Below, one piece after another: positions 47,111-47,620 of a DNA stretch of 52,902 bases. The stretch is from positions 1 to 52,902 of the IMG/VR virus record IMGVR_UViG_3300021335_000025. One strand, written 5' to 3'. The notes under the pieces are model-generated. The model ran no database searches. It was not told the DNA's origin and was given only the letters and a program-made list of their open reading frames with translations. The translations under genes and the position numbers were made by a program. The stretch comes from a virus. Position 1 is the stretch's first letter. Every line of letters begins with the position of its first letter.

Positions 47111-47139
47111 ATTTTACATAAAAAAAGAGAGGGTGTCAA
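47111..47139 (-). promoter_or_regulatory. Sigma70-type promoter with -35 inside a terminator loop
   Basis: The minus strand shows TTGACA (47134-47139), 17 bases, then TAAAAT (47111-47116). TTGACA overlaps the loop of the terminator at 47119-47147, and the terminator T-run forms part of the spacer. It drives the 75-residue gene, the 59-residue gene and thyX. Confidence 0.75.
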
Positions 47140-47147
47140 CCCTCTCT
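47119..47147 (-). terminator. Rho-independent terminator of the riboswitch cassette
   Basis: The minus strand reads AGAGAGGG-TTGACA-CCCTCTCT followed by a T7 run. The stem is 8 bp with no mismatch. It lies 3 bases after the stop of the 26-residue micro-gene and ends the transcript that starts near 47585. Confidence 0.92.
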
Positions 47148-47149
47148 AA

Positions 47150-47230
47150 TCACTTAAGTAAATGAACTTCAGCAACTATCAACAACATAAATGCCATTGA
47201 TGCCAAAGTTATTTCTGCTACTGTCAGCAT
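47150..47230 (-). CDS. Micro-gene 3 of riboswitch cassette: hydrophobic 26-residue peptide
   Basis: MLTVAEITLASMAFMLLIVA followed by EVHLLK. It is almost entirely one hydrophobic helix, long enough to span a membrane. The ATG overlaps the end of the 35-residue frame by 7 bases (ATGCTGA), with TTGGGG about 9 bases upstream. It is the last frame before the terminator. The family is unknown. It may be a small membrane-bound regulator, which is inference from hydropathy only. Confidence 0.45.
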   Translation of the reverse strand: MLTVAEITLASMAFMLLIVAEVHLLK

Positions 47231-47331
47231 TTTTTTGCCCCAACAATATGTGCAATTTGTGCTTTATGTAGTCTATTCTGTTTTTGTTTTTGATCTTTAA
47301 TGATCTGCAGGACATTCAGTTTCACTTGCAT
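47224..47331 (-). CDS. Micro-gene 2 of riboswitch cassette: basic 35-residue peptide
   Basis: MQVKLNVLQIIKDQKQKQNR followed by LHKAQIAHIVGAKKC. It is basic and helical. It overlaps the DUF4278-like gene by 10 bases upstream and the 26-residue frame by 7 bases downstream. A small basic helical peptide under a glutamine riboswitch recalls cyanobacterial glutamine synthetase inactivating factors, which are small and basic. No sequence match is claimed. Confidence 0.5.
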   Translation of the reverse strand: MQVKLNVLQIIKDQKQKQNRLHKAQIAHIVGAKKC

Positions 47332-47456
47332 ACCTCTTTAGTTTCGGTATGCTTCACACCTCTGTAGGTTTCTACAAAGGTTTCTTTTGAACAAACCATC
47401 TTATTCAGACGGTCATTGGTGTCATAAGCGGCACCACGATATACGACTTTAGCCAT
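47322..47456 (-). CDS. Micro-gene 1 of riboswitch cassette: DUF4278-like 44-residue peptide
   Basis: MAKVVYRGAAYDTNDRLNKM, ending TYRGVKHTETKEVCK. The two Tyr-Arg-Gly motifs (VVYRGAAY near the start and TYRGVKH near the end) are the signature of DUF4278, a small cyanobacterial family of unknown function. GGAGG lies 7 bases before the ATG. It is the first frame after the riboswitch at 47492-47584 and thus the direct target of its control. It overlaps the next micro-gene by 10 bases. Confidence 0.75.
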   Translation of the reverse strand: MAKVVYRGAAYDTNDRLNKMVCSKETFVETYRGVKHTETKEVCK

Positions 47457-47491
47457 GAGATTGCCTCCAAAGAAATGAGTTAATTAAAACC

Positions 47492-47584
47492 CGTTCCTTC
47501 GGGCGGTTTGCGTTCGCTATTTGCAAATAGCGAATGAACGATCCGTTCCGCCGTCCTACTTGCGACCAGTTACCTGGTTGAACG
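47492..47584 (-). ncRNA. Glutamine riboswitch (glnA / Downstream-peptide class)
   Basis: The minus-strand RNA folds by hand as a three-way junction. P1 is CGTTC (47580-47584) with GAACG (47492-47496). P2 is ACCAG-GTAA-CTGGT. The junction CGCAAGTAGGAC resembles the conserved G-x-A-A-G-U-A-G-G. P3 is GGCGG with CCGCC, enclosing a long hairpin with arm TTCGCTATTTGCAAATAGCGAA (10-bp palindromic stem). The J3/1 joint CGAAG precedes GAACG. These are the conserved elements of cyanobacterial glutamine-binding RNAs, which typically precede short reading frames. An alternative CCCG-AAGGAA-CGGG-TTTT hairpin would disrupt P1 and could be the off state. Confidence 0.85.
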
Positions 47585-47591
47585 TAAGCAC

Positions 47592-47620
47592 ATTATAGTG
47601 CTATCAACTTATGTAGTCAA
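47592..47620 (-). promoter_or_regulatory. Sigma70-type promoter of the riboswitch cassette
   Basis: The minus strand shows TTGACT (47615-47620), 17 bases, then TATAAT (47592-47597). The predicted start near 47585 coincides with the first base of the aptamer, so the leader is essentially all riboswitch. Confidence 0.9.

Follow-up and report, generated by a model that had tools for sequence, protein, structure and literature searches.

The glutamine riboswitches of cyanobacteria are located mostly upstream of DUF4278 genes and activate expression in the presence of glutamine (reviewed in PMC6316151). Tandem glutamine riboswitches are also known (Weinberg 2010, PMC2864571; PMC9481103), and 157 glutamine doublets have been reported (PMC9481103). 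The class is not confined to bacterial genomes: a glnA riboswitch has already been annotated via Rfam in the cyanophage S-CREM1 (PMC9964418), a precedent that the initial annotation of the DNA studied here had missed, and a tmRNA-linked glutamine riboswitch has been described in the methylophage Melnitz (PMC9004378). The DNA that we analyzed (the window) is a viral record of 52.9 kb (52,902 nucleotides), the top nucleotide matches of which are T4-like Synechococcus and Prochlorococcus phages, with matches to the genes for thymidylate synthase, the baseplate hub, and a single-stranded DNA-binding protein.

Organization of the locus and class of the RNA

The minus strand of the window carries, in order, a promoter (47620-47592), an aptamer (47584-47491), a ribosome-binding site (RBS, 47468-47464), ORF1, ORF2, ORF3, and an intrinsic terminator (47147-47126). 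The promoter, TTGACT-17-TATAAT, contains 11 of 12 consensus bases and places the predicted transcript start at the first aptamer base or just upstream of it. This spacing is common among related loci: of the 124 in which a -10 hexamer was found, 80 have a -10 box ending 7 nt upstream of CGTTC. The terminator, detected by a terminator scan, consists of AGAGAGGGTTGACACCCTCTCT followed by a T run.

The -10 box of the window is embedded in an inverted repeat, AGCAC-TATAAT-GTGCT (AGCACTATAATGTGCT, 47612-47585(-)), which lies outside the predicted transcript. Other phages have such repeats as well (AGGTCTATAATAGACCT, TGTGTTATTATTAACACA); the arms vary between phages while their complementarity is kept, and the mean best stem in the 22 nt upstream of 162 related aptamers was 5.4 bp, compared with 3.5 bp in shuffled sequences. 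A second promoter, TTGACA-17-TAAAAT (47139-47111(-)), has its -35 box within the cassette terminator hairpin and would drive a conserved ORF of 75 aa (47090-46863).

The Rfam glutamine riboswitch model RF01739 matched positions 47586-47488(-) with 41.2 bits (gathering score, 35; E = 1.3e-5 over the whole window), whereas the Glutamine-II model RF01704 gave 20.7 bits, below its cut-off of 33, and membership in the latter class was ruled out. The initial annotation had read a promoter-aptamer-cassette-terminator unit with the aptamer at the predicted start site, and both points were confirmed; its assignment of the RNA to the glnA/Downstream-peptide group held for glnA, for which the covariance-model search that it proposed came out above the cut-off, and failed for Downstream-peptide RNA (RF01704). 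Elsewhere, the 5' half of the P-RSM6 RNA barely clears the RF01704 cut-off (33.1 versus 33 bits). Aligned to RF01739, the window RNA has P1 (CGUUC/GAACG), a P2 hairpin, and the AAGUA...GAAG motif flanking P3, and the long-range key pair, which joins J2/3 to the base that follows P1, is C-G. The region folds with a z-score of -3.97, and homologous RNAs and peptides were found in many cyanophages. Judged from these alignments, the window RNA is a glutamine riboswitch with a new architecture, and we infer that it binds glutamine.

Two modules sharing one P3 helix

Inspection of viral stretches with the core pattern indicated that the window aptamer is composed of two CGTTCA-hairpin-CGCA modules. 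The first contains the AAGTAGG motif followed by GGAACGG, and the second lacks AAGTAGG and contains CGAAGGAACG. Because the P3 helix holds the second P1/P2-like module, the RNA is predicted to form two three-way junctions with one common P3. In this fold (all coordinates on the minus strand), the 5' strand of the outer P1, CGTTC (47580-47584, from the RF01739 alignment), is followed by the P2a hairpin (47565-47578), which constitutes slot A and is empty in the window but gene-filled in relatives. Next come J2/3 of the outer head, CGCAAGTA (47557-47564), in which the key base C47562 is predicted from outer key-pair covariation to pair with G47491, and the 5' strand of P3, GGACGG (47551-47556). 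The inner module comprises the inner P1 hairpin GAACG-GAT-CGTTC (47536-47548), the key base of which, G47543, has C47510 as its predicted partner, the P2b hairpin TTCGCTATTTGCAAATAGCGAA (47513-47534; slot B, empty in the window), and J2/3 of the inner head, CGCAAA (47507-47512). The aptamer is completed by the 3' strand of P3, CCGCCC (47501-47506), the GAAG motif (47500-47497), the 3' strand of the outer P1, GAACG (47496-47492), and the key base G47491; both P3 strands were placed by comparing their pairing with that of shuffled sequences. The initial annotation had proposed a simple P1/P2/P3 aptamer with GGCGG/CCGCC as P3. Our comparison replaced this with a nested RNA having a second CGTTCA-hairpin-CGCA module in P3 (47548-47507), and the P3 register that it supports is GGACGG/CCGCCC, adjoining the AAGTA/GAAG motif.

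Many cyanophage riboswitches have the palindrome TTCGCTATTYGCAAATAGCGAA (47513-47534) as their P2a or P2b, and a segment of 24-25 nt overlapping it corresponds to sequence that is annotated as tRNA-Ala in S-RIM8, syn9, and others; the palindrome is possibly a mobile hairpin.

Nested and tandem pairing can be distinguished by the long-range base pair after P1. In an alignment of 60 sequences, nested pairing gave 56 C-G and 4 G-C pairs without a mismatch at the outer key pair and 55 and 3, respectively, with two mismatches at the inner one, whereas tandem pairing left seven unpaired cells at each key pair. Among 146 related viral RNAs, which count as related sequences and not as independent events, the outer nested key pair was C-G in 119, G-C in 27, and broken in none, and the inner nested key pair was C-G in 139. 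P3 position 1 was paired in 145 of the 146 RNAs (A-U, 79; G-C, 45; G-U, 20; C-G, 1; shuffle maximum, 127) and position 5 in 140 (shuffle maximum, 133); position 3 was mostly C.A or A.C. The key-pair and P3 pairing argue for a complete outer aptamer, the P3 of which ends in an inner module made up of the inner P1 hairpin, P2b, and the CGCAAA junction. The outer aptamer (P1, P2a, the AAGUA/GAAG motif, and P3) would share its P3 with this circularly permuted P1/P2 module.

A covariance model of the nested fold (R1) was built from 60 nested RNAs, including the window. It gave 112.8 bits for the window, a member of the training set, and, with one RNA per genome, 93.0 bits for S-PM2, 88.7 for S-CREM1, 77.5 for Bellamy, 71.0 for ACG-2014f, 65.4 for S-CAM7, and 59.5 for S-N03; the RNA that carries the glnA annotation in the S-CREM1 record is therefore of the nested kind. 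Minimum-energy folding did not recover the nested fold, since the key pairs and the AAGUA/GAAG motif are absent from the energy model.

Other structural readings were weighed against the same data. A single glnA aptamer of the ordinary kind, the P3 arm of which is unusually long and the inner part of which is only a spacer hairpin, would agree with Rfam, which treats the inner part as an insertion, and with the completeness of the outer head alone. The P1 strands were set by our search patterns, and their invariance is thus partly the result of selection; however, all 107 of the 107 loci picked by their 3' half alone keep the inner P1 strands, the inner GGAACGG and CGTTCA-P2-CGCAA elements, and the outer junction, and the inner key pair switches from C-G to G-C in 3 RNAs and is broken in only 4 of the 146, which makes a single aptamer distinctly improbable. 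A plain tandem of two complete glutamine aptamers, with steeper (pseudo-cooperative) control, would account for the presence of CGTTC and GAACG strands in both modules, and true tandems do exist (L121). This arrangement is extremely improbable because its key pairs are non-Watson-Crick in 31 and 30 of the 146 RNAs, against 0 and 4 broken nested pairs, and because there is a single AAGUA/GAAG motif, divided between the two modules; plain tandem aptamers were ruled out on key-pair covariation. The inner head might itself bind glutamine or another small molecule, yielding a cooperative two-site sensor, as its P1 strands and J1/2 A are the same as those of the outer head, its CGCAAA junction is conserved, and its key pair covaries. 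We regard such a second site as unlikely, given that the AAGUA/GAAG motif that marks the known glutamine site is missing from the inner head and that the inner stem is gene-filled in many relatives.

Genes within the P2 stems of related RNAs

In 69 of the 146 parsed RNAs, P2b encloses 130-207 nt that form an ORF of 49-66 codons, the ATG of which lies in the stem 3-5 nt after CGTTCA. All but three of these ORFs read through the 3' stem strand, the junction, and the P3 strand, so that the protein has a tail such as DAKAD, and they usually stop (TGA/TAA) on the CTGAAGG strand of the ligand-site motif. Pairing at stem positions 3, 4, and 5 (69, 67, and 67 of the 69 RNAs; shuffled means, 56, 34, and 33) indicates that the stem is kept across the enclosed gene. 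The encoded proteins have two invariant cysteines in common, most of them match phrog_504, and their pN/pS is 0.23. In ACG-2014f, Bellamy, and S-CAM7, phrog_504 genes that stand alone are without the DAKAD tail, which suggests that the tail is dictated by the RNA. An AlphaFold model of a phrog_504-like enclosed protein showed three helices (pLDDT, 74); a fold search with this model against the PDB gave no match at E <= 0.001, and PDB profile and sequence searches with the protein gave no convincing relative.

The P2a stem can be filled as well. By the ORF criterion alone, a P2a gene was present in 60 loci, and stem position 4 was paired in 49 of them (shuffle maximum, 37). These genes, with a pN/pS of 0.27, end on the AAGTAA strand in 23 loci and just within the stem in 24. 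The P2a gene would start only approximately 12 nt into the predicted transcript, and no recognizable Shine-Dalgarno sequence was found for the enclosed genes. A looser parse assigned 77 loci to the short/short class of the window (P2a/P2b), 70 to short/gene, 26 to gene/short, and 23 to gene/gene; the corresponding numbers from a scan that fixed the middle piece only were 25, 43, 7, and 12.

The isolate P-HM2 has both slots filled. Its outer P1 strand is located at 160451, the annotated gene PHM2_179 (160464-160667) fills P2a, the annotated gene PHM2_180 (160697-160873) fills P2b, and PHM2_181 is a DUF4278-like gene. P2b is also filled in P-SSM2, P-SSM7, P-RSM6, S-SSM7, S-SZBM1, DSL-LC02, and S-SRM01. 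What is novel in the system is the slot device, which is seen in relatives; the window represents the empty-slot form. One of 93 uncut aptamers, the canonical single glutamine aptamer of locus L508, carries a gene of 68 aa in its P2, indicating that gene slots occur beyond the nested form.

The downstream cassette and its predicted control

ORF1 (47322-47456(-), 44 aa), preceded by the Shine-Dalgarno sequence GGAGG (47464-47468(-)), matched phrog_5049 (E = 3e-11) and scored 21.9 bits (E = 2e-4) against PF14105 (DUF4278), below the cut-off of 25.3; the P-SSM7 gene at the equivalent place scored 30.3 bits, above the cut-off. These matches agree with the DUF4278-like character that the initial annotation gave to the first peptide, which is 52% identical to an S-SZBM1 gene. 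The initial annotation had also listed overlapping frames of 44, 35, and 26 residues. All three do overlap (47456-47322, 47331-47224, and 47230-47150), and the second is more likely to have 33 residues (47224-47325(-)), since homologues start with ATG or GTG at about GTG 47325, which forms a GTGA overlap with the ORF1 stop. ORF2 encodes a basic peptide that matches the N-terminal module of phrog_545 (E = 6e-6, residues 5-28), and ORF3 (47150-47230(-), 26 aa) encodes a single-helix hydrophobic peptide with 87 tblastn matches in the fetched loci, many of them weak. The check for purifying selection that had been suggested gave pN/pS values of 0.27 for ORF2 (46 sequences) and 0.21 for ORF3 (53 sequences). 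Together with wide conservation, these values ruled out spurious short frames; ORF2 and ORF3 belong to microprotein families that occur widely in cyanophages and are subject to purifying selection. We regard all three frames as genuine, conserved genes.

The gene order DUF4278, ORF2, hydrophobic peptide was found in at least 21 nested-riboswitch loci (classes assigned by simple sequence rules), and a DUF4278-like gene lies downstream in nearly all loci. ORF2-like and DUF4278-like parts occur in one protein in Bellamy and ACG-2014f and are fused in the reverse order in S-CREM1, from which ORF1 and ORF2 would appear to be two separated parts of a single functional unit. Host nitrogen control is the probable target of the DUF4278 peptide, as it is for related host proteins; the likeness of ORF1 to the GS inactivating factor IF17 lies in the DUF4278 (N-terminal) part only.

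An anti-aptamer segment, UUUCUUUGG (47467-47475(-)), overlaps the RBS and can pair with CCGAAGGAA (47502-47494) in a predicted switch. When the 3' segment was folded alone, CUGAAGG (CCGAAGGAA in the window) paired with CUUUAG/UUUCUUUGG at the RBS. The expected number of pairs in this hairpin was 6.4 in the short class and 7.5 in the gene class, compared with 2.2 and 2.4, respectively, for shuffled tails, and the hairpin was also present in the window's own fold. When the outer key pair is G-C, the RBS is instead sequestered by another hairpin, formed by GCUCUUUA and UAAGGAG. Since both hairpins use sequence that is needed by or adjoins the folded aptamer, glutamine should expose the RBS. Whole-RNA ensembles showed no general change in RBS exposure between forced-folded and unfolded states, and we therefore infer the switch from the local pairing of the 3' segment.

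The most likely explanation of these data is that the RNA switches on translation of the DUF4278 cassette. When glutamine is absent, the 3' strand of the aptamer would pair with the anti-aptamer segment and block the RBS of ORF1; with glutamine, the nested aptamer would form, the RBS would be freed, and the coupled cassette ORF1-ORF2-ORF3 would be translated. Where the slots are filled, folding should bury the enclosed start codons while freeing the downstream start, resulting in opposite control. The RNA may be a two-slot chassis with one ligand and opposite outputs, in which glutamine-bound folding would shut off the genes in the slots and switch on the DUF4278 cassette, and ribosomes translating the slot genes would keep the RNA from folding; we put this forward tentatively, at somewhat less than an even chance.

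Two other modes of control were considered. Transcription termination, by competition between the aptamer and CCCG-AAGGAA-CGGG-UUUU before ORF1, would fit the listing of 47504-47489(-) in the terminator scan; however, the stem consists of just 5 pairs and most relatives have no T run, whereas the pairing with the RBS is general, and we consider termination very unlikely. The enclosed ORFs of relatives could alternatively be leader peptides, with translation, not glutamine, setting the fold in an attenuation-like manner, and their stops often lie on binding-site strands that a terminating ribosome would cover. Against this, pN/pS is 0.23-0.27 along the enclosed ORFs, phrog_504 is found free-standing in three phages (ACG-2014f, Bellamy, and S-CAM7), and the window has no enclosed ORF; we consider this alternative unlikely as well. 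As a whole, a nested glutamine riboswitch with P2 slots that acts as a translational ON switch of ORF1-ORF2-ORF3 is the best explanation, and we consider it likely to be correct; its class, nesting, slots, and coding nature follow from comparison among related sequences, and ligand binding, the ON direction, the targets, and the opposite control are its predicted elements.

If it acts as proposed, one RNA would be a sensor, a switch, and a coding sequence at once, making it a compact two-output logic element. It leads to a direct prediction on nitrogen sensing during the infection of some of the most abundant ocean phototrophs, which is testable in the previously isolated phages P-HM2, P-SSM2, and P-SSM7. 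The neglected microproteins ORF2, ORF3, phrog_504, and phrog_6471 would become a defined co-transcribed set.

Comparison with known systems

Several other aptamers were observed in the viral loci. Another viral glnA class has a conserved P3 insertion of very roughly 70-90 nt (L019, L020, L054, L055, L067, L070, L077, L090, L107, L125, and L128) and is possibly the tmRNA-linked methylophage form (PMC9004378). In P-RSM6 (L013), a strong manA RNA (RF01745, 188 bits; 2169-2354) closely follows the DUF4278-like gene that the nested riboswitch precedes. Canonical phage glutamine aptamers in L015, L025, L029, L030, L032, L034, L041, and L061 precede further small-peptide families (e.g., WQLVLIKNQKEKEQRKHQAKLA and ...VKSTNNW) that are unlike DUF4278.

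A search of 386 cyanobacterial genomes with R1 yielded only short single-aptamer matches (best, 36.0 bits; 48-75 nt), as did a search of 300 genomes from a single family with small genomes, which appear to be picocyanobacteria (best, 41.1 bits; 48-52 nt). By comparison, nested phage forms whose P2 stems are short score 59-115 bits. Gene-filled forms score approximately 21-31 bits with R1, and under the strict filters of the host scans these results therefore bear on short-stem forms. The nested two-headed architecture has so far been seen only in cyanophages. Our search of the open literature, outside which most subscription papers lie, found no report of a nested fold, slots, or enclosed genes, and the words 'nested' and 'interleaved' are absent from the text of PMC9481103. 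The riboswitches of S-CREM1 and Melnitz are, like that of the window, phage-borne members of RF01739; as far as we searched, PMC9964418 and PMC9004378 give the Rfam match only, with no inner module, slots, or downstream peptides.

Tandem glutamine riboswitches resemble the phage RNAs in having two related modules per leader, but the phage modules are nested and have P3 in common. With RF01704, the window shares the CGUUCA-hairpin-CGCA and GGAACGGG elements and the short peptides downstream; unlike that class, it keeps the type-1 AAGUA/GAAG motif, and its score is below the cut-off. The closest relative is RF01739, with which it has in common P1 (CGUUC/GAACG), P2, the AAGUAGG and CGAAGG motifs, the key pair, and a DUF4278-like gene downstream. 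The nested forms differ from RF01739 in the permuted inner P1/P2 module in P3, in P2a and P2b that may enclose whole genes, and in a key pair that is C-G in most of them. We know of no other riboswitch in which aptamer helices enclose complete protein genes, in as many as two slots and with stop codons located on the binding-site motif. Self-splicing introns carry ORFs in peripheral loops and are similar in having a protein gene in a loop of a structured RNA; in contrast, the phage RNA belongs to a ligand-binding regulatory class, and the stop codons of its enclosed genes overlap its binding motif.
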